A stretch of 64,000 bases of DNA from Candidatus Acidulodesulfobacterium ferriphilum (GTDB taxonomy: Bacteria > SZUA-79 > Acidulodesulfobacterales > Acidulodesulfobacteraceae): contig SGBD01000003.1 in assembly GCA_004195035.1 (NCBI GenBank), forward strand, positions 1 to 64,000. The letters run 5' to 3'. The translations under genes and the position numbers were made by a program. Within the stretch, counting starts at the first letter, position 1. Each line of letters opens with the position of its first letter. Shown piece by piece: positions 1-13,020 of the stretch. The notes beneath the pieces were generated by a model. It had not been told where the DNA came from and made no database searches. It was given only the letters and a program-made list of their open reading frames with translations.

Positions 1-1066
1 TACCTTTCATAATACAAACTCTACTATTTAAATATATTTTAGCTAAAGGTGTCGCATACATAAGTTTAGAACAGAAACTTTTTAGAAAGGTGTTTGTCCT
101 TTTGTTTATTTTTCTTAAATTAATTAAGAAAAGCGCATAAACAAAGCGTTAAGATTTTCTTGTTTGAATAAAATCGGAATGGTTTGTTGCAAAAAAGCTC
201 CGACGGGCTAAATTAGCGGCGATAAAATCTTTGAAAAGCCTAAAATAATGGGATTGTTTGAAACAGGAATGAACCGCATAACTGGGTATGCAGTTTTATT
301 ATATATTTTTTAGATAAGAAGTTTCCCGGCAATACGGGCGTTTTAGTGCCGCAAATCTTTCTCTCCGCCTTTAAGGCGGGGGTGTGTAAAATAGATTAGC
401 GTGATTTGCGTTAGGGGGCGGTAAATTGAATAAAACAAAGAAATGCTATGACCGCCAAAAAGTAAAATCCTAAAAAAATAAAAATATCCCTATACCTGAA
501 AACAGGTGTTAAATAAATTTAAAATTTTAAGGATTTTATTAATGTTTTATTATTTAAAGAATTATAGATTATCCGTAAAAGCGGATATTATAATAAAATA
601 AATAATAATTTCTAATAGGATTTAAATAATAATAAATAATTTTTAATATTATTTAAATTTAGGATTTTTGGACAAAATTGTCCGTAGAATGGATAAAATA
701 GATAATTATTAAAGGCAATTATCTAACGGCGGTGTCTACTTTAAAATAATAATTTTAAAACTCAACCGCGTGGATAAATCTTCGGGGATAAATTTTCAGT
801 GGTATCCCTTTTGTTGATTTTAAGTTTTGAATTTAAAATCTTTTCGCTTTTTGTTATAATTTCCGGTTTTAAGCTAATCAGCAAGTTGTTTAATCTAAAA
901 AGCTCTTGCTGAACACACCCCCAAAAATACTACTTGAAAAAGGTAAACAAAATGTGTGCATAACCGGCAGTGCTTTCGTTTTTCTCTTAAGAGAGATACC
1001 GTAAACGAAGCATGAAAGATATTTCTAATTAATTGATTTTATTTTCTCATATTTTTAAATTCTATG
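1..1066. other. AT-rich stretch with no recognisable gene
   Basis: No open frame longer than about 60 codons and no recognisable protein or RNA gene is visible here. The stretch contains several short inverted repeats: CCGCCTTTAAGGCGG near 366-380, CAGCAAG/CTTGCTG at 879-885 and 905-911, and TGCTTTCGTTT/AAACGAAGCA at 971-981 and 1003-1012. The last lies about 55 bases beyond the stop of the minus-strand gene at 1067-1888 and could be its terminator, although no clear T-run follows on that strand. Confidence 0.5.
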
Positions 1067-1888
1067 TCAAGACTTTTTATTAATTTGCCTAAAAAAACTT
1101 TCCGCTTCGGATAAGGCTATCACGCGCGATAAATTATCTCCTTTCACAAATTCTTTTCTATAAAGCGTTTCCGTATGCTGTATGGGTTTATGATTCGTTT
1201 CGTAAACCCATACAAAACTATCCGTAACCAATACAGTTATTTTATGACTTACGACTTTTCCCGTCTTGCCGTCTTTAAATATTTCCGTCAACTTCTTGCC
1301 GGAACGTTCCTGTTTCGCTTTTATTTTAGGCTTAGATAAAAATATACGGACAAAACCTTTGTCGAAATGACGGACAACGCTTTTAACGAAAAATGGATAT
1401 TTTTTAAAAGTTTCGTAATAACCTTCCGATAACGGCAAATATGCGATTTTACCCACCCCTATATCAACAATGTAGAACTCGTCCGTTTTAGATACTATCA
1501 TACCCCTAATGTGTTTAGAAATTAAATAATTATATTTAACCCAATCCTTTGAAGTGCTTAATTTATTGGCTTCTTTGTTAATCTCCAAAACTATCTCTTT
1601 AAGAGAAATGCTGTCTCTCAAATTGCTTATATACTCATTTTTCAGGTTAATAACTTTTAAAAATATCTTATGCCTGATATTTCTCACGTCCTTAAGCGAC
1701 GATATAAGTATCTTTTCATCATCGTTTTCGGCGTATAAATCATAGGAATCATCAAATACAACCCTGTATTTGCCGTAAAAAACGTTTTCCATCGCTTTTT
1801 CTATAATAAATATAGCCTCTGGCATACTTAATCCATTCGTTGACGATATTGTCCGAATTATGTTTTTAATATCCTGAAACCGTTCCAT
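1067..1888 (-). CDS. Remote NusA-like protein (N-terminal plus S1-like domains)
   Basis: This 273-residue protein is not an obvious member of a named family. The first ~90 residues resemble the RNA-polymerase-binding domain of NusA: a helix with EAIFIIEKAMENVFYGKY, then a strand-rich part. Residues ~125-185 (HIRGMIVSKTDEFYIVDIGV, KIAYLPLSEGY, FVRIFLSKP) look like an S1 domain entering the conserved LSR/LSK step. The KH domains that follow in true NusA are absent; the last ~80 residues are basic and unassigned. It could modulate transcription elongation or bind RNA, but that is inference. It stands alone beside a toxin-antitoxin array, and a plasmid- or phage-type NusA homologue is one reading. 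Alternative: an unrelated S1/OB-fold protein. Confidence 0.4.
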   Translation of the reverse strand: MERFQDIKNIIRTISSTNGLSMPEAIFIIEKAMENVFYGKYRVVFDDSYDLYAENDDEKILISSLKDVRNIRHKIFLKVINLKNEYISNLRDSISLKEIVLEINKEANKLSTSKDWVKYNYLISKHIRGMIVSKTDEFYIVDIGVGKIAYLPLSEGYYETFKKYPFFVKSVVRHFDKGFVRIFLSKPKIKAKQERSGKKLTEIFKDGKTGKVVSHKITVLVTDSFVWVYETNHKPIQHTETLYRKEFVKGDNLSRVIALSEAESFFRQINKKS

Positions 1889-2050
1889 AAAAATTATTCA
1901 TTAAATAAGTTAATTTATTCATGATATATGTTTTAGCATATATTATTGAACGTTGCAAACTTATAGCCAAGTTAAAAATAATCCGGCAACTTTTTTCCTG
2001 TCGGCGCAAATCCTTCTTTAACTTTTTATTTAAAACAGGTTTTGTCGTTA

Positions 2051-2100
2051 GCTCTCTGTTTGTATTTTTTCGCTAAAGCTCAAAAATACAAACAGAGAGC
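2051..2100. repeat. Perfect 19-bp inverted repeat with 12-base loop
   Basis: The arms GCTCTCTGTTTGTATTTTT (2051-2069) and their exact complement (2082-2100) enclose a 12-base loop. This is far longer than a typical terminator stem, has no matching gene directly upstream on either strand, and lies 150 bases from a second inverted repeat. It may be the end of a small mobile element or a structured RNA. Confidence 0.8.
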
Positions 2101-2168
2101 GGGTTTGCGGATATATTGCAGAATTAATTAATTTTGTAATCCGCAACAATTTAAACAACGATGTTGAG

Positions 2169-2262
2169 GTTTGTTTCTTGCTTCGTTTTATTTTGGTTTC
2201 CAAACCGGCAAGCGGTTTGAAAACCAAGCCTTGCGGCAAAATTAAACTACGGCGAAACAAAC
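2169..2262. repeat. Nested inverted repeats (structured region)
   Basis: TTGGTTTCCAAACCG (2193-2207) pairs with CGGTTTGAAAACCAA (2213-2227) with one mismatch over a 5-base loop. Outside it, GTTTGTTTC (2169-2177) pairs with GAAACAAAC (2254-2262). The nested layout suggests a folded RNA or single-stranded DNA structure. The overlapping minus-strand frame at 2048-2260 is low-complexity and is not taken as a gene. Confidence 0.5.
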
Positions 2263-2402
2263 ATTTAAAAGCATTGTATCGGGCTTCCGCCCGAACCTGA
2301 CAAGCGTATGCACGCTTGACCGCAGGGGGTTATAGAGGCGTTAACCGAACGTTAATGGTTATTTCCGGCAGTGTTCACACTTCATACATTATTTTATTAA
2401 AC

Positions 2403-2445
2403 AAAAACATCCCGACCAAGTCAAACGCAGTCGAGAGTGCGAATA
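2403..2445 (-). repeat. Degenerate copy of the terminator repeat
   Basis: This reads on the minus strand as a decayed hairpin of the 62-bp repeat family: the core GACTGCGTTTGACTTG is kept but the flanking stem has changed. A matching left end (AATTAAAGTCAGATTT on the minus strand) lies at about 2500-2515, so the copy may be split by roughly 50 bases of other DNA. Confidence 0.5.
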
Positions 2446-2570
2446 TGGAGGCGGGCGCTTATAAAAGTGAAGCTTTTATGTCCGCCAGAGTGATTAAATC
2501 TGACTTTAATTTTAGTTTTGGGAAATCCAGTTTATTTATAAAAATTTATAAATAATGATATAATTAATCT

Positions 2571-2906
2571 ATGGAAAATAAAAATTATATATTAAATACC
2601 GCAAAACTAATAATTACTGAAGAAGTCGAAAAAGCTGGATATAAAACCGAAGCAATTTATCTTTTCGGTTCCCGTGCAAGAGGTGACTATAAAGAGGATA
2701 GCGATTGGGACTTTTATGTCGTCGTAGATAAAAATATGGAAAGAGATACAAAAATAAGAGTATCCGGAGATATTAGAAGGGGACTGAGAAATAAATTAAG
2801 AATATCGAGCGATATACTTATTCAGCCTCTTAATATCGTAAACGAAAGAAAAAAACAATCCGGTTATGTAGCATATTTTGCATTAAAAGAAGGCTTAGCC
2901 GTATGA
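2571..2906 (+). CDS. MNT-domain nucleotidyltransferase, antitoxin of a MNT/HEPN pair
   Basis: This 111-residue minimal nucleotidyltransferase carries the family signature at residues ~32-50: GSRARGDYKEDSDWDFYVVV, the GS-x(10)-DxD metal-binding motif. In MntA/HepT-type systems such enzymes neutralise the HEPN ribonuclease partner, in studied cases by adenylylating it. The stop overlaps the start of the HEPN gene (ATGA at 2903-2906), the usual translational coupling of these pairs. Length and motif are intact, so the antitoxin half appears functional even though its partner is frameshifted. Assignment to the MNT fold is firm; antitoxin activity is inferred from context. Confidence 0.88.
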   Translation: MENKNYILNTAKLIITEEVEKAGYKTEAIYLFGSRARGDYKEDSDWDFYVVVDKNMERDTKIRVSGDIRRGLRNKLRISSDILIQPLNIVNERKKQSGYVAYFALKEGLAV

Positions 2907-3300
2907 ATGACGAATTAGTAAATCTCTGGATAATTAAAGCAGACCATGATCTGAAAACGGCTAAAGATGAAATAACCGCAAACGATCCCGCTACCGACAC
3001 CGTCTGTTTTCACGCCCAGCAGTGCGTTGAAAATATTTAAAAGCATATCTTGTTTTCAACGGTATAGAAATAATAAAATCTTTAAAAACTCACGATATTA
3101 GCGAATTAATCGATTACTGCAAGGATATAGATAAAGATTTTGAACAACTAATATCGGATAACGATGCCGATAGATTAACAAATTATTCTATCGAAGCGAG
3201 ATATCCGGACGACTTTTATCTACCGTCCGTTGAAGAAAGCAATCAAGCGATATATATTGCAGAGAATGTAAAAGAATTTGTTAAAGTTAAAATTAAATAA
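2903..3300 (+). pseudogene. HEPN toxin gene with a single-base frameshift
   Basis: The frame opens at 2903 with MNDELVNLWIIKADHDLKTA and reaches FHAQQCVENI, then stops at about 3037. Inserting one A in the run at ~3031-3034 restores EKYLKAYLVFNGIEIIKSLK and then HDISELIDYC and YSIEARYPDD, ending at the stop 3298-3300. The restored 132-residue product is a standard COG2250-type HEPN protein, the RNase partner of the MNT protein it overlaps. The lost base lies in an A-run, so the break could be a real decay event, a phase-variable tract or an assembly error. The reading frame downstream is otherwise perfectly preserved, which argues for a recent event. Confidence 0.8.
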
Positions 3301-3392
3301 TGCGTTACCGCACCCGCTAATTGATTAGAATAAAAATAAGACGTAACAATTTACCCGGTTATTTTTTCATAAATCGTTTCAGAAGTAAAATT

Positions 3393-3440
3393 ACCGCAAA
3401 CTCAGGCGAGAGTGAGAGAATAAATAAATCTGGCACCTTT
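3393..3440 (-). repeat. Degenerate copy of the terminator repeat
   Basis: On the minus strand the leader (AAAGGTGCCAGATTTATTTA) is nearly intact but the hairpin has decayed. It abuts the 5' end of the gene fragment at 3446-3592, which it appears to have truncated. Confidence 0.7.
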
Positions 3441-3445
3441 AATTC

Positions 3446-3592
3446 AAAATACATGATGCTATTGAAACGGAACAGGTCTTAAAAACTCTTTTTGATAAAA
3501 CAAAAAAAGTGCTCCCCGAAACAAAACAAGACTGGTTAAATTTTGTAAAAAATATGAGAGGCAGATACCTGAATATATTGAAAGAATTATAA
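3446..3592 (+). pseudogene. 5'-truncated gene fragment of unknown family
   Basis: A 48-residue open stretch begins inside the repeat edge without a start codon and reads IHDAIETEQVLKTLFDKTKK, then VLPETKQDWLNFVKNMRGRY, ending with a stop at 3590-3592. Its amphipathic, charged composition looks like a genuine C-terminal helical domain rather than chance. I do not recognise the family. The 5' side is replaced by a terminator-repeat copy in the opposite orientation, so this is the surviving tail of a gene. Confidence 0.45.
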
Positions 3593-3622
3593 ATAATAAT
3601 TATATAACCTACAAACACAATT

Positions 3623-4210
3623 ATGAACCAAGGAACCATTTTAATTGACATTAAAAATACGATAACCAGCACAATAAACGAAATCCTAAAGGATTTTGGT
3701 TGCTTTCCGGGTAAATATTTAACCGAAAGCGATGCCAGATGCCTTTTATTTAACCTGCTTATGCAAAATGACATTTTCAGCGAACTAAAACCAACCGCAG
3801 ATAAAGATTTATCGCAATCTATCCCGCTTCACACAGAAGTGCGCTGGTATGGCGATTCAGGGAAATTAAAATACAGGTCGGATATCGTAATTATTGAAGT
3901 TTCCTCTTTAAGAGTTAAAGAAAAAATGAAACTACCCAGTAAAGGATTTAGCTTTAATAAATTCAGCGCGATCATCGAAATTAAACTGCGCAGAATAAAC
4001 GGCGACCCGGATAAAAAGTTTATTGAAAAAATAAAAGCGGATATAAAAAAATTAAAAAATATCAAAAAGAAAATCGATGGCGTATGGGATTTTATACCCT
4101 TTTTATTAATTTTAGATAAAAAGAATAATATACAACACTCGATCAACAGCTTAAGTAATAAAGCAGATAGCTCAAATAATTTGCAAATTTTTTATAAATC
4201 ATCCAAATAA
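3623..4210 (+). CDS. PD-(D/E)XK nuclease-like protein
   Basis: This 195-residue soluble protein has a plausible nuclease core. Residues ~70-95 contain LHTEVRWYGDSGKLKYRSDI with VIIEVSS following, and residues ~115-125 contain AIIEIKLRR, matching the D...E-x-K arrangement of the PD-(D/E)XK fold (D in RSDIVI, E and K in IEIKLR). The C-terminal part is lysine-rich and helical (KIKADIKKLKNIKKK). Such proteins are found as restriction-like or DNA-repair nucleases in defence islands. The neighbours are toxin-antitoxin and truncated nuclease-like genes, which fits. The exact family and substrate are unknown. Confidence 0.6.
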   Translation: MNQGTILIDIKNTITSTINEILKDFGCFPGKYLTESDARCLLFNLLMQNDIFSELKPTADKDLSQSIPLHTEVRWYGDSGKLKYRSDIVIIEVSSLRVKEKMKLPSKGFSFNKFSAIIEIKLRRINGDPDKKFIEKIKADIKKLKNIKKKIDGVWDFIPFLLILDKKNNIQHSINSLSNKADSSNNLQIFYKSSK

Positions 4211-4310
4211 TAATAAAGATATGTTATGCCGCCGATACACAAATTACTTAGTCGCCGCATTTCAATTTTCATTATCAATGCCCGGAAAGATAACACCCTT
4301 GGGTTTTAGG

Positions 4311-4781
4311 TCAACGCAACAATGTCATTGGGAATAAATAAATCTTTTTTAAAAATTTAAGGCAGCCAAGAAAAAAGACCTTTTTCTTTTTTTTATAACA
4401 GTAAAAACAAAAACTCCCTGCCACGGCAAACGCAGTCGGGAGTATGAGAATAAATAAATCTGACACCTTTAATCTTAATTTTTTGGTGACATTGGCTTTT
4501 TTCTTTGCCTCAATAACTATGAGATTAGATTTATTACTGCCTCTTTTATGAATTATAATATCGGGATAAACCGTCGTTCCTTTATCGTCATTTGAGCGTG
4601 TTTTGGATACGCTTAAATTTAATTCTTTAGGAATAAACTTTGCCTCTGCTTCGCCATTATTATTTCTTTTGTTCGGCATCCTGTTATACTCGCAATCCAC
4701 ATTATAATCGGAAAAATATTTCTGTATATATTCGGCAAGCTTATGAGTAATACTTCGCTCATTAAGATTATTCTTTAACAA
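4311..4781 (-). pseudogene. PD-(D/E)XK-like protein truncated by, and fused in frame to, the repeat
   Basis: The first ~100 codons (TTG start at 4781) encode a nuclease-like domain with EYIQKYFSDYNVDCEYNR, then VYPDIIIHKRG and NLIVIEAKKK, the D...E-x-K core of a PD-(D/E)XK fold. After TKK the frame enters the terminator repeat at 4470 and continues as KVSDLFILILPTAFAVAGSF, then a random tail to a stop at 4311. The natural C-terminus is therefore missing. The gene starts just after the 36-codon gene at 4788-4898. Three other ORFs or remnants in this region also end in repeat-encoded sequence. Confidence 0.65.
4409..4470 (-). repeat. Terminator repeat copy (sense to the truncated nuclease gene)
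   Basis: Leader GGTGTCAGATTTATTTATTC, then the hairpin CTCCCGACTGCGTTTG / CCGTGGCAGGGAG with T-run, all on the minus strand. It lies inside the reading frame of the upstream gene and would also end its transcript. Confidence 0.9.
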
Positions 4782-4787
4782 AAAACA

Positions 4788-4898
4788 TTATTTTAATAAA
4801 AACTCGCTTATTGCTTTGACCAAATCATCCCCGCGCTCGAAGTCTTCAGGGATTCTTCCGATTATTGTTTCTTTAAATTTAACTTCGGATTTGCTCAT
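4788..4898 (-). CDS. Small protein with the KFKETIIGRIPED motif
   Basis: This 36-codon gene reads MSKSEVKFKETIIGRIPEDF then ERGDDLVKAISEFLLK. An AAAGGGCAACCGTT leader sits ahead of the ATG. Its stop lies seven bases before the TTG start of the nuclease-like gene, so the two look co-transcribed. The motif recurs at 5314-5424 and 10463-10528, so it is a repeatedly copied small gene rather than chance. The family is unknown; an antitoxin- or immunity-like role is possible only from context. Confidence 0.6.
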   Translation of the reverse strand: MSKSEVKFKETIIGRIPEDFERGDDLVKAISEFLLK

Positions 4899-4931
4899 AA
4901 CGGTTGCCCTTTATTTTAAATATCCATAAAT

Positions 4932-4993
4932 AAAAACTCCCGGCCGCGTCAAACGCAGTCGGGAGTAAGAGAATAAATAAATCTGACACCTTT
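4932..4993 (-). repeat. Terminator repeat copy (sense to 5002-5211)
   Basis: A full-length consensus copy on the minus strand: GGTGTCAG leader, CTCCCGACTGCGTTTG / ACGCGGCCGGGAG hairpin and T-run. It starts within ten bases of the upstream gene's stop. Confidence 0.92.
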
Positions 4994-5001
4994 AATTGTT
5001 T

Positions 5002-5211
5002 TTAATTTTTAAATAATTCGCTTGTCTTTTTGTTCTTAATCATTTCAAATTCAGTCATTTTTTCTTTATCATTGGATTCTTCAAGTTTGGCAATATATTT
5101 TAAATATTCAATTGAAAAAAAGAAAGATATAAAATCTTTTTGCGTTTTTAAAAGTTCTATTTTTTTTATAATTTCTTTATGTTCATTTGTAAAATTATGA
5201 TAATTATCCAT
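5002..5211 (-). CDS. Small hypothetical protein (69 aa)
   Basis: The protein MDNYHNFTNEHKEIIKKIEL continues with an aromatic helical segment (DFISFFFSIEYLKYIAKLEE) and a lysine-rich tail. AGGAG is well placed before the ATG, so it is probably translated. No known domain is recognised. Its first dozen residues (MDNYHNFTNEHK) are nearly repeated at the start of the chimeric small gene at 5314-5424 (MNKYNNFANEHK), which shows that the 5' end of this gene has been reused. It is followed immediately by a repeat copy, like the other units of the array. Confidence 0.6.
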   Translation of the reverse strand: MDNYHNFTNEHKEIIKKIELLKTQKDFISFFFSIEYLKYIAKLEESNDKEKMTEFEMIKNKKTSELFKN

Positions 5212-5254
5212 AACGTTTCTCCTATTTTAATTTAAATTTAAATTAAGTCTAAAT

Positions 5255-5315
5255 AAAACCCCCGGCCGCGTCAAACGCAGTCGGGAGTAAAGGAATAAAT
5301 AAATCTGACACCTTT
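5255..5315 (-). repeat. Terminator repeat copy (sense to 5314-5424)
   Basis: A full copy on the minus strand, with one stem change (CGGGGG). Its ATTAAAGG left edge supplies the stop codon (TAA) of the small upstream gene. Confidence 0.9.
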
Positions 5316-5424
5316 AATTTTTGACAAAATCATCCCCGCGCTCGAGGTCTTCAGGGATTCTTCCGATTATTGTTTCTTTAAATTTAACTTTATGTTCGTT
5401 TGCAAAATTATTATATTTATTCAT
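5314..5424 (-). CDS. Chimeric 36-residue small protein
   Basis: The product reads MNKYNNFANEHK then VKFKETIIGRIPEDLERGDD and FVKN. The first 12 residues match the start of the 5002-5211 protein; the rest matches the 4788-4898 protein. It is thus a fusion of the 5' end of one neighbouring gene with the body of another. GGGGAG before the ATG gives a good ribosome binding site. The stop TAA lies in the left edge of the repeat. This indicates recombination between units of the array. Function unknown. Confidence 0.6.
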   Translation of the reverse strand: MNKYNNFANEHKVKFKETIIGRIPEDLERGDDFVKN

Positions 5425-5461
5425 AACGGTTACTCCCCTTTATTTTACAATATCCATAAAT

Positions 5462-5523
5462 AAAAACTCCCGGCCGCGTCAAACGCAGTCGGGAGTAAGA
5501 GAATAAATAAATCTGACACCTTT
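5462..5523 (-). repeat. Terminator repeat copy downstream of the pilin gene
   Basis: A full consensus copy on the minus strand, 33 bases after the pilin stop, in sense orientation. The divergent silent pilin copy has the same repeat 25 bases after its own stop (7448-7509), so both pilin bodies share a common 3' flank. Confidence 0.92.
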
Positions 5524-5556
5524 AATCTTAAATATCAGCCGTAAAGTAGATTAAGA

Positions 5557-6303
5557 TTAGTAAGCTGTTCCGGAAACTAAATTCGCCGAACTGCTGAAAT
5601 CGTCAACGGCATATATCTGCCAGTTAGAGCCAGTAAAATTGGTTTCAGCAAAAGCGGCATATCCGCCTCCGCAATAGCCGTTTGCTCCTGCTGCCCCTGT
5701 TTGTGTGGCGCCTGATGCGAGCGAGGTGACTGTCGGGGGCCACGCTGCAGCTACTCCTGCTGCTTGAGCGGCAACGGTGGGGCCGGAAAGTGATGCCACC
5801 CCATAGGAGAAATACAGGGTTCCTTTGGGATAAAAACCGATATCGGCAAAGCCGCCTTGAGCTTGAACAGATAAGGTTGTTGACGTAGCGGCGGTTGGGG
5901 CTATTGCACCGGTCGTTGTATTGATTGTATTAAGTCCGCCCATAGTGTCTAATGTCCCTCCATTGCAAGCAAACGGAGGTATATCGGAAATATATAATCC
6001 TGCTCCCTTTGTTAATGTTGCATCGTAAAAAGCGTGGGTGGGCGAAGCTGCCTTAGCAGTAAGAGCCGTTGCCGGTGCAGAAGAAGTTCCCGCGCTGATA
6101 TAAGTCGAATTTGTCGCGTTAAACGCTGTTTCGTCCGTAAAGATTGCGCCGAGGTTCGTGGACGCCTCCGAATCCTTTGCGCGGTTTACATAGCTCAAAT
6201 AAGTGGGAATCGCTATCGCCGCCAAGATGCCGATAATGGCGATGACGATTAAAAGCTCTATCAATGTAAAGCCTTTTTTCCCTTTTAATCTGTTAATGTT
6301 CAT
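5557..6303 (-). CDS. Type IV major pilin (prepilin), expressed locus
   Basis: This 248-residue prepilin has an 11-residue basic leader ending in KGKKG, cleavage before F12, Glu at mature position 5 ([20 protein letters not shown]) and the hydrophobic N-terminal helix that anchors and assembles the pilus. The body is rich in Ala, Gly, Thr and Ser. Two cysteines (C113 in PPFAC and C211 in GYCGGGY) probably form the D-loop disulfide. Conserved blocks ([23 protein letters not shown]) alternate with low-complexity segments. The transcript would end at the repeat 5462-5523. The divergent gene at 6787-7422 is a second body with the same layout but no N-terminus. No pilus assembly genes are nearby, so it uses machinery encoded elsewhere. 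Confidence 0.93.
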
Positions 6304-6528
6304 TTGTGTTGCCTCCTTAAAAAGTTAGATATGTTAATTTGGTTAATTTAATCCGCAAATAATTATTTTATTTTTTTGTTTGTTTTTTTACTTTATATTA
6401 TAAAGTATAGATAAGCATATTTTATGCCAGAGCGTAAAAAAAGCATTAAAACCTGTGCAATAGGTCTATTTTACTGCCATTTTTATAAAATCTAAATAAA
6501 TTAATATTCTTTCTTAAAATATGTTATT

Positions 6529-6664
6529 TGACAAAAATTGTCAACTTAAAATTAATAAATCCTTTGAAATGTATAATTTTATTTATATTTACGGGGTATG
6601 ACAAAAATTGTCACCGATTGACAAAAATTGTCGTTTGAATTTTTAAAACTGTGACAAAATTGTG
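6529..6664. promoter_or_regulatory. Four palindromic TGACAAAAATTGTCA-type sites upstream of the pilin
   Basis: TGACAAAAATTGTCA occurs at 6529-6543 and 6599-6613. TGACAAAAATTGTC lies at 6619-6632, and a weaker TGACAAAATTGTG at 6652-6664. Each is a near-perfect palindrome, so the cluster looks like an operator array for a dimeric regulator. It lies between the divergent pilin gene and the truncated pilin copy, 230-360 bases upstream of the pilin start. The remaining intergenic DNA (6304-6528 and 6665-6786) is AT-rich with no gene. Confidence 0.55.
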
Positions 6665-6786
6665 CCAGAATTGAAATCAAAATACGGAAAATACAGAAAA
6701 TCCGGTAAAATATAGAATGTCTGCAAATGCTTAATACTGTTAGAAAGCAAGGCGGAGTGCCGGTTTAATTAAGTTAATTCGTCAAT

Positions 6787-7422
6787 TTAAGCTACGTCAA
6801 TAGGGCAAAGGATTCGGAAGCGTCCACGAACTTAGGAGCCATATTTACGGACGAAACGGCGTTTAACGCGACAAACTCAATGTATATTAGTGCGGGGTCA
6901 AGTTCTGGTCCCACTGCAACAGCATTGGCCGCAGGCGCTGTTTCACCTGTTCACGCTATGTATGATGCCACAAACACAGCAGGCGCAGGAACATACTATG
7001 CAGATGTTGCGCCTTTTGCGTGTACTGGTGGTGTTCTTACTAATAACGGCAGTTATACGACATATGCTCCCGGTGCGGCGCCTAAACCTACCGTGGGTAA
7101 TACACCCGGAACTAAAGCAATTGGAGGCTTCGCTGATATTGGTTTTTACCCTAAAGGAAGCCTATATTTCTATTATGGCGTAGGAATAAGCTCTACTGCT
7201 ACCGATGCTACCCCGACGGTTATAGGCACAGCTGCTTGGCCGGTAACTGTTGCACCGCTTGGTGTAGGTGGAGCAGCCGTTGGAACAACTGGTACGAACA
7301 GCTCTTGCGGAGGCGGTTATGAAGCCGTTGCCGGAACCAACTTTGCTGGTTCAAATTTCCAAATATACGCTGTTAATGATTATAGCAGTTCGCCTATTCT
7401 AATTGCAGGAACAGCATATTAA
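6787..7422 (+). pseudogene. Silent pilin cassette: pilin body lacking leader and N-terminal helix
   Basis: The reading frame is homologous to the expressed pilin from its residue 36 onward ([13 protein letters not shown]...). It has no start codon at that point and an in-frame stop a few codons upstream; the first Met is at 6880. Over the first 30 shared codons all 12 differences are synonymous. Further on, constant blocks ([28 protein letters not shown]) alternate with diverged segments, and both cysteines are kept. Without a signal and N-terminal helix the product cannot be assembled, so it is either a donor for recombination into the expressed pilin or a 5'-deleted pilin gene. It shares the downstream terminator repeat with the intact gene. 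Confidence 0.85.
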
Positions 7423-7447
7423 TAAATTAAAGGTGTTATGATTTATT

Positions 7448-7509
7448 AAAGGTGTCAGATTTATTTATTCTCTTACTCCCGACTGCGTTTGACGCGGCCG
7501 GGAGTTTTT
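7448..7509 (+). repeat. Terminator repeat copy downstream of the silent pilin
   Basis: A full consensus copy on the plus strand, sense to the truncated pilin. A shorter piece of related sequence (AAAGTCAGATTTATCC) follows at about 7549-7564. Confidence 0.92.
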
Positions 7510-7742
7510 AAGTAAAATGCTATCCGATTTATTTTAATAAAGTCAGATTTATCCCCCCTGCCCCTAACCGTATTTGCTAAGCGTGATAAAGTAATCTAAT
7601 ATCCGCATTTCAACCCTCCAAATATTATAATTTTGTAAAAAATTATTTTTTCTATTTTTTTATATGGTATAATATATAAAAAAAGTTTATAAAATATAGG
7701 AAATAAAACGAAGTAACTCTTAATCAACAAAATTAGAACAAT
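7510..7742. other. AT-rich intergenic spacer before the UPF0175/PIN pair
   Basis: No gene is visible. The sequence around 7667-7675 (GGTATAATAT) contains a perfect TATAAT that could be the -10 box for the toxin-antitoxin pair starting at 7743; no good -35 box is seen. Confidence 0.35.
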
Positions 7743-8006
7743 ATGAAAATAACATTGGAACTTCCCGAAGACATAACGGCATTATTAAACGAAGATGCGC
7801 AAAACCTTGCCGACGATATAAAGCTTATGGCCATAATAAAAATGTATGAACTCGGCAAAATATCTCTCGGCAAAGTCGCCGAATTTCTAAAAATAAATGA
7901 AATGAATTTTATGGAATTATTAGGCAAATATCAAATACCCGCAATAAATTATTCTCCCCGCGAATTAGACGAAGAATTAAAAACATTAAACAAGTTTATA
8001 AATTAA
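7743..8006 (+). CDS. UPF0175-family antitoxin
   Basis: This 87-residue protein matches the UPF0175 pattern: an N-terminal strand MKITLELPEDI, then AIIKMYELGKISLGKVAEFL, a helix-turn-helix segment, and the tail of the form GKYQIPAINYSPRELDEELK. UPF0175 proteins are the usual antitoxin partners of DUF3368 PIN-domain proteins and probably bind both the toxin and its promoter. The next gene is exactly such a PIN protein and starts directly after this stop (TAA then ATG at 8007). The gene is intact, while its partner carries an internal stop. Confidence 0.85.
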   Translation: MKITLELPEDITALLNEDAQNLADDIKLMAIIKMYELGKISLGKVAEFLKINEMNFMELLGKYQIPAINYSPRELDEELKTLNKFIN

Positions 8007-8516
8007 ATGATTGCCGTTGCCGATAGTTCATCACTGATAGCATTGTCTATATGCAACCGCCTTGATTTATTAGATATGTTTTTTGATAAAATAATCGTTC
8101 CCGAAGCCGTTTATAATGAAATAACGTTAAATGACAAACCTGAATCCGAAAAATTAAGAAATTATTTATAGAATAAAGTATCAAAAGAAAACATAGGCGA
8201 ATACTTATTAAACGATATTTGTTTGGGGCAGGGAGAATTAGAAGCCATAGCTCTTTGTAAAGCCATAAATGCCGATTTTCTAATAATAGACGATAGGCTT
8301 GCAAGAAAAGCCGCATCGGCAAATAATATAAAAATAACGGGAAGTTTGGGAATATTATTGTCCGCAAAAAAGAAAGGATATATAAATACTATAAAACCCT
8401 GCATAGAAAGCAGATTAATAAAAAAAAAGGTGTCAGATTTATTTATTCTCTTACTCCCGACTGCGTTTGACGCGATCGGGAGTTTTTGTTTTTACTTCTT
8501 GTCCTACAATTTATAA
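8007..8516 (+). pseudogene. DUF3368 PIN-domain toxin with in-frame TAG and repeat-derived tail
   Basis: Translation from 8007 gives MIAVADSSSLIALSICNRLD and IIVPEAVYNEI, the acidic N-terminal PIN core. A TAG codon at 8169-8171 (after KLRNYL) interrupts it, and the frame continues with LGQGELEAIALCKAINADFL and IIDDRLARKAA, the rest of the PIN active site. Near the C-terminus the frame enters the terminator repeat at 8425 and reads KVSDLFILLLPTAFDAIGSF. So the toxin has a nonsense mutation and has lost its natural last residues. The antitoxin just upstream is intact. Confidence 0.85.
8425..8487 (+). repeat. Terminator repeat copy inside the 3' end of the PIN gene
   Basis: A plus-strand copy with the hairpin CTCCCGACTGCGTTTG / ACGCGATCGGGAG and T-run. 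It forms the last codons of the PIN reading frame. Confidence 0.92.
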
Positions 8517-8601
8517 TTATGTTAATTATTTCAATTATCAAATTGTATTGATTTTATTTTTTATTTTATTTTGATATAATAATATAAAAAAATAATTTAA
8601 T

Positions 8602-8846
8602 ATGGATTTTAAATTATCAAAATATTTTACGGATAAGGTTTTAATTAAAAGACCTTATATTAAATTGGAATGGTTATCAGAAATTAAAACAAGTTATGTT
8701 AAAAAAGAAATTCAAGGCGATGGAAGAATAAGATACTGGGATATATAGATGAGGTTAAGAAATATTTACGCGTAGTTTTCTTAGAAGACGGCGAAACTAT
8801 TCATAATGCTTTTTTTGATAGGAATTTTAAAGAAGGTAAACAATAA
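8602..8846 (+). pseudogene. Small toxin-like gene with a one-base frameshift
   Basis: The frame starts MDFKLSKYFTDKVLIKRPYI, continues through KKEIQGDGRIRYWDI and stops at about 8746. Adding one G in the GGG run at ~8739-8741 restores YWGYIDEVKKYLRVVFLEDG then ETIHNAFFDRNFKEG, ending at 8844-8846. The restored ~80-residue protein is the type commonly paired with DUF2283 proteins, with the characteristic YWGYI and LRVV.LEDGET..NA..DR.F pattern. Its stop overlaps the start of the DUF2283 gene by one base. Either a recent loss of the toxin-like partner or a homopolymer error explains it. Confidence 0.7.
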
Positions 8847-9061
8847 TGAAAATAGATTATTATAATGATACAGACACGCTATACATAACTTTATCCGACA
8901 ATCCAAGCGTTGAATCAGAAGAAATAAGCCAAGATGTAGTTATTGATTTAGATGAAAATTCGCAACCTGTTGGTTTTGAAATTGAGCATGCTAGACAAAA
9001 AGTTAATCTGAATTCAATTATTTTTAATTTAGGAAATATTCAATTAGAAAAAACCGCTTAA
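8846..9061 (+). CDS. DUF2283 protein (probable antitoxin)
   Basis: This 71-residue protein shows the DUF2283 pattern: MKIDYYNDTDTLYITLSDNP, then a conserved strand VVIDLDENSQPVGFEIEHAR and a hydrophobic tail. DUF2283 proteins occur as the second gene of pairs with DUF4258 or YWGY-type small proteins and are presumed antitoxins. The start codon overlaps the preceding frameshifted gene. A repeat copy follows within a few bases of its stop. Two more DUF2283 genes lie within 1.5 kb (9247 and 10139), diverged enough not to be recent tandem duplicates. Confidence 0.85.
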   Translation: MKIDYYNDTDTLYITLSDNPSVESEEISQDVVIDLDENSQPVGFEIEHARQKVNLNSIIFNLGNIQLEKTA

Positions 9062-9064
9062 AAA

Positions 9065-9125
9065 AAAGTGTCAGATTTATTTATTTTCTTACTCCCGACT
9101 GCGTTTGACGCGGCCTGGAGTTTTT
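9065..9125 (+). repeat. Terminator repeat copy (sense to DUF2283)
   Basis: A plus-strand copy with one stem mismatch (CCTGGAG), directly after the DUF2283 stop. Confidence 0.9.
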
Positions 9126-9166
9126 ATTTCCTTTCACAGTTTTTCATTCAGTTATATAATTTTTAA

Positions 9167-9250
9167 TTATGTAAAATTATTTTTACTGTTGAGAACGGAA
9201 AAATTGTAGTAATAAGTGTATTTCCATTTAAGAGAGGTAATAAAAAATGA
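9167..9250 (+). pseudogene. C-terminal remnant of a DUF4258-type toxin
   Basis: An open stretch without a start codon reads IIFTVENGKIVVISVFPFKR then GNKK, and its stop TGA overlaps the ATG of the next gene (ATGA at 9247-9250). The wording resembles the last strand of DUF4258 proteins (compare IENNKIITVTVYVFYGKWE in the intact gene at 9873-10142). The 5' portion is missing, just downstream of a repeat copy, so the toxin half was lost while the DUF2283 partner stayed. Confidence 0.6.
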
Positions 9251-9471
9251 AGATATTCTACGATAAAGAAGTTGATGCGGCATATATAAAATTATCCGAC
9301 GTTAAACCTACAGGGGTTATCGAAGTTGAAGGCGGTATAAATATTGATACGACAAATAAAAATGAAATCGTGGGCATAGAGATTCTTGATGCTTCGCAAA
9401 AGTTTTCTTTAGAATCTTTATTTTCTTGCGATTTTCATGAAAATTATTTATTGGATAAAGCTAATTTATAA
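9247..9471 (+). CDS. DUF2283 protein, orphaned antitoxin
   Basis: This 74-residue DUF2283 member reads MKIFYDKEVDAAYIKLSDVK, then VEGGINIDTTNKNEIVGIEI and LDASQKFSLESL. The family's IVGIEILDAS core is intact. Its normal partner is reduced to the last ~25 codons directly upstream, with which it shares a four-base overlap. It is therefore an antitoxin-like gene left without a toxin. RBS GAGAGG lies ahead of the start. Confidence 0.85.
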   Translation: MKIFYDKEVDAAYIKLSDVKPTGVIEVEGGINIDTTNKNEIVGIEILDASQKFSLESLFSCDFHENYLLDKANL

Positions 9472-9498
9472 TAAATAATAAAATTAAAGTTAATCAAA

Positions 9499-9562
9499 AA
9501 TTAAAGTCAACTATGTTATTTAATTTCTGAAACCCTTGCCAATTCTGCGTTTCAGGAAAAAA
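9499..9562 (+). repeat. Second short repeat, copy 1
   Basis: AATTAAAGTCAACTATGTTA and the following ~40 bases (CTGAAACCCTTGCCAATTCTG, then GCGTTTCAGGA) recur with a few changes at 10523-10582. It begins with the same AATTAAAG edge as the terminator repeats. The rest of 9472-9872 outside this and the next repeat holds no gene. Confidence 0.6.
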
Positions 9563-9621
9563 AGGTGTCAGTAACTGTGTTATTTGTCAAGTATTGAAAA
9601 AATGAAATAATTAAAATAATT

Positions 9622-9683
9622 AAAGGTGTCAGATTTATTTATTCTCCTACTCCCGACTGCGTTTGCCGTGGTCGGGAGTTTTT
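9622..9683 (+). repeat. Terminator repeat copy
   Basis: A plus-strand copy with the hairpin CTCCCGACTGCGTTTG / CCGTGGTCGGGAG and T-run, 150 bases after the orphan DUF2283 gene. Confidence 0.92.
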
Positions 9684-9872
9684 GTTTTTTCCTTCCTTTC
9701 TTCCTTGCCTCATAATTTTCCGCTATGTAAACCGCATTATTCATAATTTATTATTTTTTATTATTGATTTTATTTTCGTGATATAATGTAAGTAAATTTT
9801 TTTTATAATAAAAACTGTTTTATTTAAATGAAAAAATACAGGAAATTAAATATATTTTATTTTTTGCTTTAA

Positions 9873-10142
9873 ATGGATATTCAAATTGATACACACACAT
9901 TATTGAGGGCTAAAGAAAGAGGAACTAATGAAACTGAAATTAAAGAAGTTATTAACAATGGTTTTATAATTGGGTCAAAATATGGTCGCATTGGAAAGGC
10001 TAAAATTTACGAATTTAAGCAAAATAGACTTAATAATTATTATGAACAGAAAAGGGTTGAAGTATTTTTTATTATTGAAAACAATAAAATAATTACTGTA
10101 ACCGTATATGTTTTTTATGGAAAATGGGAGGTTGAAATATGA
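9873..10142 (+). CDS. DUF4258 protein (probable toxin)
   Basis: This 89-residue protein matches DUF4258: IDTHTLLRAKERGTNETEIK near the N-terminus (the conserved H...R..ER pattern), a central YEFKQN strand, and VEVFFIIENNKIITVTVYVF at the end. DUF4258 proteins are considered RelE-like toxins paired with DUF2283. The stop overlaps the DUF2283 start by four bases (ATGA at 10139-10142). It is one of the few intact toxin genes in the array. Activity is inferred. Confidence 0.82.
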   Translation: MDIQIDTHTLLRAKERGTNETEIKEVINNGFIIGSKYGRIGKAKIYEFKQNRLNNYYEQKRVEVFFIIENNKIITVTVYVFYGKWEVEI

Positions 10143-10354
10143 ATATTGCCTACAATGATAAAACAGATCTATTATATATCAGGTTAGATGATAGGGCTCA
10201 AGATTTAATTAATAAAAGAGTTTCCGAAGATGTCGTTTTAGATATAGGAAAAGACGATAAAATCGTTGGTATAGAGATAACTGATGCATCTAAACGCATT
10301 TCTTTAGATAAGATTTTTCCTTTGAGTTATGAATTCAATAAAATCGCCTCTTAA
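10139..10354 (+). CDS. DUF2283 protein (antitoxin of the DUF4258 pair)
   Basis: This 71-residue DUF2283 protein reads MNIAYNDKTDLLYIRLDDRA then VSEDVVLDIGKDDKIVGIEI and TDASKRISL. It is the third DUF2283 member in 1.6 kb and the only one with a complete DUF4258 partner. It overlaps that partner by four bases and is followed 16 bases after its stop by a repeat copy. Confidence 0.87.
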   Translation: MNIAYNDKTDLLYIRLDDRAQDLINKRVSEDVVLDIGKDDKIVGIEITDASKRISLDKIFPLSYEFNKIAS

Positions 10355-10370
10355 TTATTAATTTTTAATT

Positions 10371-10429
10371 AAAGTCAGATTTATTTATTCTCTCACTCCC
10401 GACTGCGTTTGCCGTGGTCGGGAGTTTTT
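10371..10429 (+). repeat. Terminator repeat copy (sense to DUF4258/DUF2283)
   Basis: A plus-strand copy lacking the GGTG of the leader (AAAGTCAG) but with an intact hairpin CTCCCGACTGCGTTTG / CCGTGGTCGGGAG and T-run. Confidence 0.9.
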
Positions 10430-10462
10430 ATTTATGGATATTTAAAATAAGGGGCAACCGTT

Positions 10463-10528
10463 ATGAGCAAATCCGAAGTTAAATTTAAAGAAACAATAAT
10501 CGGAAGAATCCCTGAAGACTTGAATTAA
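10463..10528 (+). CDS. Truncated copy of the KFKETIIGRIPED small gene
   Basis: The 21-codon frame reads MSKSEVKFKETIIGRIPEDL then N and a stop. The first ~20 codons and the upstream leader (ATTTATGGATATTTAAAATA) match the minus-strand gene at 4788-4898 almost exactly. The C-terminal half has been replaced at an AATTAAAG junction, the same edge sequence that starts the repeats. It lies directly after a repeat copy. Probably a non-functional remnant. Confidence 0.5.
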   Translation: MSKSEVKFKETIIGRIPEDLN

Positions 10529-10582
10529 AGTCAACTATATTATTTAATCTCTTAAACCCTTGTCAAATCTGCATTTCAGGAC
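10523..10582 (+). repeat. Second short repeat, copy 2
   Basis: Matches 9499-9562 with several base changes, starting at AATTAAAGTCAACTAT. Here it leads straight into a strong terminator hairpin. Confidence 0.6.
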
Positions 10583-10613
10583 TTATTGGCATTTATGCAA
10601 TAAGTCCTTTTTT
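10579..10613 (+). terminator. Intrinsic terminator
   Basis: GGACTTATTG and CAATAAGTCC form a 10-bp stem around a 9-base loop, followed by a T7 run. It would end transcription from the DUF4258/DUF2283 side on the plus strand. Confidence 0.8.
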
Positions 10614-10660
10614 TCCCTGACTTTGACACCCCACCCCATTTAAACAAATATCTTTCGTAA

Positions 10661-10789
10661 AAATATTCGGACAGACAGTACCGTTTCAGGCTTGAGGACT
10701 TGGATAAATTTATCGTTGACGACAGGACTCCAAGCTTGACCAAGCATAAATCAAAAATTGCCTTTCATCGCCGGGAGGCTTTAGGTTAG
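10661..10789 (+). pseudogene. Remnant of an excisionase-type helix-turn-helix gene
   Basis: A start-less frame reads KYSDRQYRFRLEDLDKFIVD then DRTPSLTKHKSKIAFHRREA and stops at 10787-10789. The RQYRFRLEDLDKFI segment is typical of the second half of excisionase or MerR-like winged helix-turn-helix domains. An in-frame stop lies directly upstream, so the recognition helix is lost. It suggests that a mobile element once sat here. The rest of 10614-10994 holds no other gene; the overlapping minus-strand frame is a shadow. Confidence 0.45.
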
Positions 10790-10994
10790 GCAAAAGGCTA
10801 AAATTATAGCCGGAATGTAACACAAAACTAAATCTCCTGCTTCTTTTTAGGTAGGGCGGGATACGGTTATATCTAAATATTAGCTTATCTATTGATTTTT
10901 GATTAAATAAGGGCATGGGGAAATTGACTTTACTTTAATTGTTATATGTAATAATATATTTAATATATAAATTAATAATTTTAGAGGCATTAAT

Positions 10995-11207
10995 ATGAAA
11001 CTAAAAGACCAAACCATAAAGGAATTAGAATATCTGGAACCGTCCGAAATTATAAAAGTTTACGATATGGTAATTGCATTAAAATCGTCGCAGATAAAAC
11101 CGGTTAAAAAGAGCGGCTTGTCTTATATGAAAACGCGAAAGGCTCTTGAAAACATAAAGGGCTCTCTCGGAAAGGATATCGTATTACTCAGAGAAGAAAG
11201 GATATGA
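10995..11207 (+). CDS. Small antitoxin paired with a PIN toxin
   Basis: This 70-residue protein (MKLKDQTIKELEYLEPSEII then KVYDMVIALKSS) is typical of short antitoxins found directly ahead of PIN-domain toxins. Its C-terminal half is basic (KTRKALENIKGS) and would wrap the toxin. Its stop overlaps the toxin start by four bases (ATGA at 11204). The gene is intact. The exact antitoxin family is not recognised. Confidence 0.7.
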   Translation: MKLKDQTIKELEYLEPSEIIKVYDMVIALKSSQIKPVKKSGLSYMKTRKALENIKGSLGKDIVLLREERI

Positions 11208-11653
11208 TTCTATTCTTTGACACATCCGCACTTGTAAAATTTTTTCACGAAGAAGACGGTTCGGAAAAAGTTACAAAACTTATAGCCTCCCAAAACAATA
11301 AAATTTTCGTATTGGATCTTTGTAAATTGGAGTTTTTAAGCGCTTTATACAGAAGATTCAGGAATAATGAGATAGACGAATATTCTTTAAATTTGGCAAT
11401 TGAAGGTTTTGAAGAAGAAGTTGCCCTGTTCAATGTTGAGAATATGAGCTATCCCGTTTTATAAGAATCCGAAAATTTATTAAAAAAATACGGCAAAAAA
11501 CACGGCCTTAGAACTTTAGACGCATTGCATCTCGGATGTTTCAGCTTAATTTCCGAAAATGATTGGTATTTTGTTTCTGCCGATGACAATCTCTGTAATA
11601 TAGTTAAAATTATTGGCTTTAAAACAATTAACCCATTAACTAATGCGGATTAA
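11204..11653 (+). pseudogene. VapC-type PIN toxin with in-frame TAA
   Basis: The frame starts MILFFDTSALVKFFHEEDGS (first PIN aspartate in FFDTSALVK) and CKLEFLSALYRRF (conserved glutamate region), then stops at TAA 11462-11464. The same frame continues ESENLLKKYGKKHGLRTLDA then LHLGCFSLI and FVSADDNL, supplying the remaining acidic residues and ending at 11651-11653. The full 149-codon frame is a standard VapC; only one nonsense codon breaks it. The N-terminal fragment alone lacks half of the active site. The upstream antitoxin is intact. Confidence 0.87.
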
Positions 11654-11693
11654 AAAAGGGAATGGCGGTTTCATTTCTTTTTGAAGAGAATAA

Positions 11694-11710
11694 ATAAATC
11701 CGACACCTTT
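11694..11710 (-). repeat. Partial terminator repeat (leader only)
   Basis: On the minus strand GGTGTCGGATTTATTTATTC, extending a few bases further, remains of the repeat; the hairpin is absent. It lies 25 bases after the stop of the RelE gene, in sense orientation. Confidence 0.7.
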
Positions 11711-11734
11711 TTTGTTTTTTGATTTGATTTTATT

Positions 11735-11995
11735 TTATTTATATATATTTTTCCTATGGCCGACTTCTAAAATCGTAATGGTTTTCTCTGTTTCATTAAC
11801 AATATATATAATTCTATAATCACCATAACGATATCTAAACATTCCGGAAAAATTTTGTTTCAGAGGTTTACCAAGTCCAATTGGATCTTGTGATAAGTAT
11901 TTTTCAACTTTTTCAAATATTTTTCGAGAAAGAGAAATGTCTAAACTTTTTAAATCATCTAATGCGGATTTATGCCAGATTAATTTATAATCCAA
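11735..11995 (-). CDS. RelE/ParE-family toxin
   Basis: This 86-residue protein carries the RelE-fold pattern: MDYKLIWHKSALDDLKSLDI, GKPLKQNFSGMFRYRYGDYR and IIYIVNETEKTITILEVGHR, with the conserved R-x-R-x-G-D-Y-R-I-I-Y core and the terminal GHR.NIYK. RelE enzymes cut mRNA on the ribosome and ParE relatives poison gyrase; the GHR.xVY ending favours the RelE side. It overlaps the upstream antitoxin gene by 11 bases. It is intact, unlike most toxins in this array. Confidence 0.9.
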   Translation of the reverse strand: MDYKLIWHKSALDDLKSLDISLSRKIFEKVEKYLSQDPIGLGKPLKQNFSGMFRYRYGDYRIIYIVNETEKTITILEVGHRKNIYK

Positions 11996-12194
11996 GATAT
12001 TTCTTTGCTTCCTCGTGGTTTAAGTACTCGGCATTTTTATCATTCAAACGCTCTAATGCAACAGAAGCATCATCATTTTCTTCAAGATACAACTTTAAAG
12101 CTTCTCTTATATAAAAACTCTTTGATTTTCGCGTTTTAATCGACAAATCTTCAAGCCTATTTTCTAACTCTTCAGGCAATTTTAAATTTAACAT
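11985..12194 (-). CDS. Ribbon-helix-helix antitoxin (RelB-like)
   Basis: This 69-residue protein starts with an RHH strand and helices (MLNLKLPEELENRLEDLSIK then TRKSKSFYIREALKLYLEEN) and ends in an acidic toxin-binding tail (EYLNHEEAKKYLGL). RHH antitoxins bind as dimers to their own promoter and inhibit the partner. It is first in the minus-strand operon with the RelE gene and overlaps it by 11 bases. GGAGA lies ahead of its start. Function is well supported by context. Confidence 0.88.
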   Translation of the reverse strand: MLNLKLPEELENRLEDLSIKTRKSKSFYIREALKLYLEENDDASVALERLNDKNAEYLNHEEAKKYLGL

Positions 12195-12329
12195 AATAAA
12201 ATATCTCCATAAATTTAATTTATAATTATATTATTACATTTATTACTGAAAATATCAAATAATTTTAATATTTTTTGGTCTGCTTTTAACAAACCGGTTT
12301 ACATAATTAGAAATTATGACATGAAATTA

Positions 12330-12391
12330 AAAGGTGTCAGATTTATTTATCCTCTTACTCCCGACTGCGTTTGACGCGGACGGGAGTTTTT
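12330..12391 (+). repeat. Terminator repeat copy without an upstream sense gene
   Basis: A full plus-strand copy with the hairpin CTCCCGACTGCGTTTG / ACGCGGACGGGAG. It is the exception in the array: no plus-strand gene lies between it and the divergent RelE pair, so it may mark a deleted unit. It sits 46 bases ahead of the SIR2 gene. Confidence 0.9.
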
Positions 12392-12437
12392 GTTTTTACT
12401 GTTATTTTAAATTTTTAAATGAAGTAGGAGGTATTAA

Positions 12438-12884
12438 GTGGAAGAAAAAGAAGAAAAGCCTCAAATTGTTTTTTTATTAGGCGCGGGTGCTTCGAAAGAA
12501 GCGGGTGTTCCCGATACTGTAGAATTTGTTGAGGATTTTAAAAAACATATAGAAAATGGAAATAATTCAAATGATATTCAAACGGTAAATAAGATAATAG
12601 AAATTTTGGAAAAATGGAAAAAGGCTGAAACAAGCAATTCTGAACAAAAAATAGATGTAGAACTCCTTTTGGAATCACTTACAAAACTTAATAAAAAGAA
12701 AGATGAGCCATTATTACGATTTTATAAAAATATCGAACAAAATTTTATATTAAGAGATTATGCTGAAAAGAAGCCGCTAATTGATGAATTAAGGGATTTT
12801 ATAAAAAAGGAAGCTATAATATCCGACAGCAGAAAGATTGAATACCTTGAACCGCTTTTAGATTTTATCGAAAGGAATAAATAA
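12438..12884 (+). pseudogene. SIR2-domain defence protein, N-terminal fragment
   Basis: The 148-residue frame begins with IVFLLGAGASKEAGVPDTVE, the NAD-binding GAGAS-x-x-AGVP motif of SIR2-like proteins found in antiphage systems. The remaining helices fit the first ~140 residues of such a domain, ending at YLEPLLDFIERNK. In relatives the next segment carries the conserved NYD and catalytic histidine, which are missing. The stop is created by a partial terminator repeat in reverse orientation (12873-12897). The start is GTG at 12438 after GTAGGAGGT, a strong RBS. It is truncated and almost certainly inactive. Confidence 0.75.
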
Positions 12885-12897
12885 ATCTGACACCTTT
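12873..12897 (-). repeat. Partial terminator repeat truncating the SIR2 gene
   Basis: Reading on the minus strand, AAAGGTGTCAGATTTATTTA continues a few bases and ends without the hairpin. On the plus strand it supplies the last codons and stop of the SIR2 fragment. Confidence 0.8.
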
Positions 12898-13020
12898 TTT
12901 GCTTATTAATTCAAGGAACACCTTTTTTGCACCTTTTTTTGAAATTTGATTATTTCCTTAAACAGTGATATAAATGTAATATTAAAAGTTTAATAATGTA
13001 TTAAGTAAAAGAGGTATTCA

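Follow-up and report, generated by a model that had tools for sequence, protein, structure and literature searches.

The first 64,000 nucleotides of a 227-kb contig (C3) of Candidatus Acidulodesulfobacterium ferriphilum (G000, 1.87 Mb in seven contigs), referred to here as the window, raise the question of why a complete type IV pilin gene faces a second pilin body that has no leader, and which of the two pilins is made. The intact gene (5557-6303, minus strand, 248 aa) matched PF07963, and the facing body (6787-7422, plus strand) is open throughout and aligned with the intact pilin from residue 36 to the end, with neither the leader nor the hydrophobic helix; its longest ATG-initiated reading frame begins internally, at 6880. 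As the initial annotation of this DNA had described, the two sequences differ 12 times in codons 36-65, always synonymously, the pair of cysteines is conserved and a repeat is common to both 3' sides. The cysteines stand at 113/211 and 114/209 in the two pilins, and the repeat begins 34 and 26 bases past the two stop codons.

A pilin search of the whole genome returned, besides the intact gene and the body, one strong match, to residues 1-43 at C1:2166-2294 on an 878-kb contig (C1), and two weak pilin-like N-termini. The piece on C1 reads as 43 residues ending in SYVNRAA, followed by a stop. The longest exact stretch common to this C1 half and the body region of the window was 23 bp, ATTTAAGCTACGTCAATAGGGCA, located at C1:2169-2191 and, on the plus strand of the window, at 6785-6807 (pilin codons 36-42), and when the two halves were joined at this core (through C1:2169-2294) a complete in-frame pilin of 246 aa was obtained. 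Because a 5' half is present on C1, with an exact core and in-frame joining, the body represents the 3' half (codons 36-246 and stop) of the host's own pilin gene rather than an independent silent copy, and codons 1-42 of that gene lie at C1:2166-2294. This largely agrees with the alternative that the initial annotation had itself named, a normal full-length pilin in some strain, in that the body proved to be part of one normal gene.

Comparison of the rejoined host pilin with the intact pilin showed 168 of 245 aligned residues to be identical, 84 of these through synonymous codons, and that half of the identical residues are specified in this way suggests that both pilins have been functional for a long time. 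A class III signal with the N-methylation motif (10 residues) is present in both genes, and secretion/pilus ATPases are encoded in the genome; a search of the genome with the PF00114 profile gave no match. The predicted structure was too poor to be informative (mean pLDDT 42).

Directly adjoining the C1 pilin piece is a tyrosine integrase of 353 aa (C1:1068-2129; PF00589, E 1.9e-36; PHROG 1, E 6.7e-73), and beside the same junction, attL, lies a 75-aa excisionase-like protein (HTH_17; TIGR01764 above cut-off; PHROG 66, excisionase) whose activity is predicted. The 23-bp core stands in direct orientation at both ends of an integrated element, as attL on C1 and as attR in the window, and among the 30 genomes of the family that were compared a homologous empty site (G016:C36) could be set against an occupied one (G022:C42), the latter being collinear with the uninterrupted pilin of G016:C36 through the final base of the core. 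G003, of the same genus as G000, was rejected as an empty site, the host leader there being a 14-codon remnant before an element-type pilin, and G016:C36 was taken instead. In attL of G016 and G008 host-specific letters precede AGCTA, and in attR of G010:C28 they follow it; from this placement the crossover would lie at AGCTA or immediately beside it, in codons 36-38.

The start of C1 is 2.2 kb and the start of C3 6.8 kb from the core, and the two contig starts are linked by a 5.7-kb contig from a different genus (G008:C57), in which window 1-3429 corresponds to positions 3549-120 at 99.56% identity and C1:1-1633 to positions 4095-5727 at 99.3%; the two matches are correctly ordered, with 545 bp between them. 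This bridge indicates that C1 and C3 start on either side of a single gap within an element of ~9.5 kb, of which ~545 bp, deduced from the G008 copy, is absent from the G000 assembly; the side with the cargo pilin and attR occupies window 1-6784 and the integrase end C1:1-2191. In G010 a single contig of 17,694 bp (G010:C54) holds both ends of the element, the integrase on one side and the cargo pilin with attR on the other.

Besides the integrase, the excisionase-like protein and the complete pilin on its attR side, the G000 element codes for a protein of 146 aa, an MNT-type nucleotidyltransferase (2571-2906, plus strand, 111 aa; PF18765/PF01909; 100% identical in G008:C57), part of a PD-Lambda-3_A-like defence protein (4311-4781, minus strand; PADLOC PDLC03986, E 3.9e-19, profile positions 35-120 of 159), proteins without assigned family, and a 273-aa product (1067-1888, minus strand) with no Pfam or PHROG match and a 100% identical G008 homologue. 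DUF3987 and primase-like genes adjoin the integrase in the G010 and G016 versions. The element also encodes a second, divergent tyrosine-recombinase-like protein of 323 aa with weak XerC/integron-integrase similarity, whose full length is present in the G008 copy alone, at L112 (G008:C57) 3489-4457; it is paired with the 146-aa protein, and a related pair occurs in G015:C72. Among the part of the element's reading frames that was scanned (545 bp being missing), there were no relaxase or conjugation genes and, with PHROGs, no capsid, tail or packaging genes. A viral origin found no support, as integrase relatives in IMG/VR were at most 37% identical, the att arms were absent from IMG/VR and no phage pilin matched; plasmid integrases were distant among the matches listed. 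Excised forms (an attP circle or a restored attB) were not found in the assemblies, the only data read.

The complete pilin on the element side lies head-to-head with attR, in the same spot and orientation, in G000, G008, G010, G023 and G027, its start being 476-686 bp from the core, a range that covers the five attR junctions having an intact core and a readable flank. Descent of these cargo pilins as a single lineage was rejected, since they interleave with other pilins in the tree, and from this the element appears to exchange its pilin. At L050 (G023:C33) 2992-4849 the cargo pilin and the silent host body are mutual closest relatives (100/100), unlike those of the other genomes, and homologous exchange or inversion may have taken place between them.

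Our search for regulatory sites further revealed that the palindrome TGACA-N5-TGTCA occurs without mismatch at four places genome-wide (a reversed control gave 0): two, at window 6529-6543 and 6599-6613, are upstream of the cargo pilin as candidate activator sites, and two, at C1:3019 and C1:3117, are upstream of the host pilin unit. The palindrome is conserved upstream of most family pilins. Between operator and gene there is in each case a candidate sigma-54-type -24/-12 promoter, TGGCATAAAATATGCT at window 6429-6414 (minus strand, 126 bp ahead of the start codon of the cargo pilin) and TGGCACAATTATTGCT at C1:2897-2882, and sites of this type were found in the upstream kilobase of 17 of the 19 pilin or pilin-5' loci, against a background of 3 per 385 kb of strand. 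With palindromes and promoter type in common, the cargo pilin is very likely to be under the host's own pilin activator, as judged from these predicted sites. In this genus the host pilin unit has an extra 154-aa gene of no assigned family between the sigma-54 promoter and palindromes and the pilin (L006 2390-2851, 2882-3131), which among the 30 genomes was seen in G000 and G003 alone. One or two genes for large membrane proteins (~632 and ~571 aa; L111 12639-16249, L053 1281-3648) follow the pilins of many relatives and the cargo pilins of several, and in G010 a family 2 glycosyltransferase stands beside them; the large proteins had no Pfam or NCBIfam match, and it is possible that they are pilin-modifying enzymes.

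The conserved arm that flanks the attR core, AAGGCGGAGTGCCGGTTTAATTAA (6749-6772, plus strand), was detected at 10 sites in 9 of the 30 family genomes, and eight of these sites run into core and pilin body; in G000, G023, G027 and G010 (twice) the readable part of the body is intact, and in G008, G017 and G019 the body is decayed or deleted. At the other end of the element, the integrase-side arm on C1 begins GCCTAATTTCC, and the junction sequence GTCAAYAGGGCAGCCTAATTTCC was present in four genomes, following pilin codons 1-42 in G000, G016 and G022 and non-pilin sequence in G008. In three genomes attL ends at residue 42 and in four the attR bodies start at residue 36, and in related genomes integrases of this one clade cut pilin genes at identical codons. 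The target is not absolute, as the G008 integrase end shows by adjoining non-pilin sequence: at L113 (G008:C14) 1-900 the integrase end of a near-identical element is found near a large membrane-protein gene, with just AAGCTA and the following core left, and this junction represents either a secondary integration site or a deletion.

Phylogenetic analysis placed the integrases at pilin sites in one clade (100/100 support), and the next most similar integrases of the family (~46-63% identical) sit at genes or gene fragments for tRNA-Arg, -Val, -Lys, -Thr or -Gly, so that a single shift of target from tRNA to pilin is the parsimonious account. The element is >99% identical between two genera in which the chromosomal stretch compared is 70-75% identical, which means that the transfer was recent. 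At L060 (G003:C8) 1519-1699 the host pilin is reduced to its first ~14 codons, followed by a full same-orientation pilin with an element-type ribosome-binding region, which looks like a later stage of replacement. An exact 127-bp overlap inside the integrase gene, between L112 (G008:C57) 5601-5727 and L113 (G008:C14) 1-127, bears the mark of an assembly-graph fork, and the contigs of many relatives end close to att sites, together hinting at mixed junctions in the populations.

We consider it highly probable that an integrative element of ~9.5 kb recombined its attP with the host pilin site at codons 36-42 and acts as a pilin-replacement element; the insertion site, the split of the gene, the ends of the element, the replacement pilin with the same control sites, the recurrence and the recent spread can all be read from the assembled DNA. 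In the mechanism proposed, the element's tyrosine integrase would recombine attP with codons 36-42, giving attL on C1 and attR with the 3' body in the window; in the integrated state the host pilin would not be made and the cargo pilin would be made instead, under host pilin regulation, and precise excision would re-create the host gene, gain and loss of the element thereby swapping the major pilin. The likely benefit would be that pili are retained while their surface is altered, with effects on the phage receptor, on adhesion and on the exclusion of related elements.

Another account, in which a passenger element broke a dispensable pilin in a one-way accident, the cargo pilin being unlinked to the event and the halves decaying as pseudogenes, fits the decay that is seen at occupied sites, namely the stop in the G016 5' half, the degraded bodies of G017 and G019 and the deleted body of G008. 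We regard it as unlikely, however, since in each of the five attR junctions where the core is intact and the flank readable the cargo pilin keeps one place and orientation, its sigma-54 promoter and operator are conserved, and the host bodies are open over their full length in G000, G010:C28, G023 and G027.

The DNA between the two facing pilins could also be an invertible switch, possibly as a second use of the integrase, in which promoter and leader between a core in the cargo pilin (codons 36-42, minus strand) and the attR core (plus strand) invert to serve either body, as a counterpart of the Moraxella pilin switch in which the promoter is what inverts. Core-like inverted repeats do flank ~600 bp with the promoter and leader, the G027 cores differ at two positions alone, and the 14-codon host remnant followed by a full same-orientation pilin in G003 is what inversion plus deletion might give; yet six of the 23 positions differ between cargo core and attR core in the window, including one that adjoins the deduced site of crossover, and integration fully explains the series of attL, attR and empty sites. 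Inversion between cargo core and attR may occur, more probably in G027 than in G000, but as the explanation of the locus it is very improbable.

The initial annotation had suggested for the pair a possible Neisseria-like pilE/pilS system, in which the body would be a donor cassette whose segments pass into the expressed pilin through homologous gene conversion. That a complete pilin is opposed to a silent body, with the question of which pilin gets made, was a sound observation, and the N-terminal deletion, the alternation of conserved and variable blocks, the kept cysteines and the common 3' repeat are all as such a system would have them; the close sister relationship of cargo pilin and silent body in G023 also indicates that homologous exchange may happen there. 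The interpretation as a conversion store is nevertheless not supported, the body being half of a gene interrupted by an integrase element, its 5' half lying beside the integrase with an identical core. Further silent copies, for which the initial annotation had proposed a search near other copies of the repeat, do not exist in the genome, where the pilin search yielded just the intact gene, the two halves and the two weak N-termini. The intact pilin and the rejoined host pilin share no exact DNA longer than 26 bp, and the stretches longer than 20 bp lie in the leader and helix part that is absent from the body, so there is no trace of recent conversion; no four-run G-quadruplex (runs of three) occurs on either strand of 4500-8500, and the 3' repeat, which had been likened to the shared 3' repeats of pilE/pilS systems, is a general terminator-like one. 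Antigenic variation of this type therefore retains hardly any credence. That the halves stem from different strains or chimeric contigs, as might be suspected from both G000 contigs ending inside the element and many related contigs ending near att sites, has a practically negligible probability, given that the same junctions, arms and core recur independently across several genomes, that C1 and C3 are 878 and 227 kb long and that G008:C14 has sequence characteristic of the genus to which G008 belongs.

Gene-interrupting elements with regulated excision are known in the nifD element, the skin element in sigK and the comK prophage ('active lysogeny'). As in those, a site-specific element here splits a functional gene that excision would rebuild, but the pilin element adds a divergent substitute for that gene, with the same regulatory sites in front of it, and both states would be expected to make pili. 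Integrative elements with attB in tRNA genes (islands, mobilizable elements, satellites) share with it the Phage_integrase enzyme, the excisionase-family HTH protein, the attL/attR core and the carriage of cargo, and the closest integrases of the family are at tRNA genes; here, in contrast, attB lies in pilin codons 36-42 and is destroyed rather than restored, and the element carries a full replacement of the broken gene. Integrases with attB in a protein gene usually restore that gene or simply break it, and this element could afford an important target by supplying its own version of the gene. The pilin groups of Pseudomonas aeruginosa carry linked accessory genes, and their exchange is thought to proceed via homologous flanks. 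Divergent pilin alleles are exchanged in both cases, here with linked large membrane-protein genes in relatives and a plausible phage-receptor benefit, although the present exchange would proceed via a self-encoded integrase rather than flanking homology.

In Moraxella bovis and M. lacunata, Piv inverts a segment with two pilin genes by site-specific recombination (PMC4073114), so that the choice of pilin depends, as proposed here, on recombination at the pilin genes. The present system differs in having the tyrosine integrase of a transferable element, with insertion and probable excision, and the cargo pilin has its own leader; the shared leader of Piv/IS110-type switches was thus not found, and the adjacent recombinase is a tyrosine integrase. 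In Neisseria, silent pilin copies without an N-terminus stand beside a complete pilin (PMC9072670, PMC3547852), whereas here there is no store of many copies, no sign of conversion and no four-run G-quadruplex, and the one silent copy is half of an interrupted gene. Searches of the literature, mostly without subscription papers, for a pilin gene as attB, a pilin-inserted prophage or island and pilin inversion returned no precedent for this arrangement.

If the replacement reading is correct, a mobile element would swap the surface pilus, a phage receptor or adhesin, in one step, which would add a third, testable source of pilin diversity to gene conversion and inversion, and N-terminally deleted 'silent pilins' in other genomes may be attR scars instead of cassettes for antigenic variation. 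More tentatively, and as a proposal that may well prove wrong, the element family that shifted its integrase from tRNA to the pilin gene could act as a transferable pilin switch between states, some copies bringing linked large membrane-protein genes along with the regulated cargo pilin, and so change phage susceptibility and the exclusion of pilus-dependent elements. Pilin type affects the host range of phage PP7 in P. aeruginosa (PMC5820433), and by analogy an exchange of receptor would be a reasonable benefit.

The repeat shared by the two 3' sides is ~62 bp long (AAAGGTGTCAGATTTATTTATTC...CTCCCGACTGCGTTTGACGCGGCCGGGAG, then a T-run), forms a stable hairpin and resembles a terminator; 14 copies occur in the genome, 12 of them within window 3418-13452. 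The copy after the host body (7445-7510, plus strand) and that after the cargo pilin (5461-5526, minus strand) form a 66-nt inverted pair of 100% identity. A role as a recombination signal peculiar to pilins was considered and rejected, the repeat being located at many small genes and absent after several pilins. Many copies follow, in the same orientation, a small gene of toxin-antitoxin-like or DUF2283 type, and the region behaves like a cassette array with no recognisable attC sites. Units of gene plus repeat recur reordered elsewhere (8423-9131 in G010:C11 at 91%; 12767-13392 in G008:C14 at 94%), and a repeat, at 3429, is also where the element ceases to match G008.
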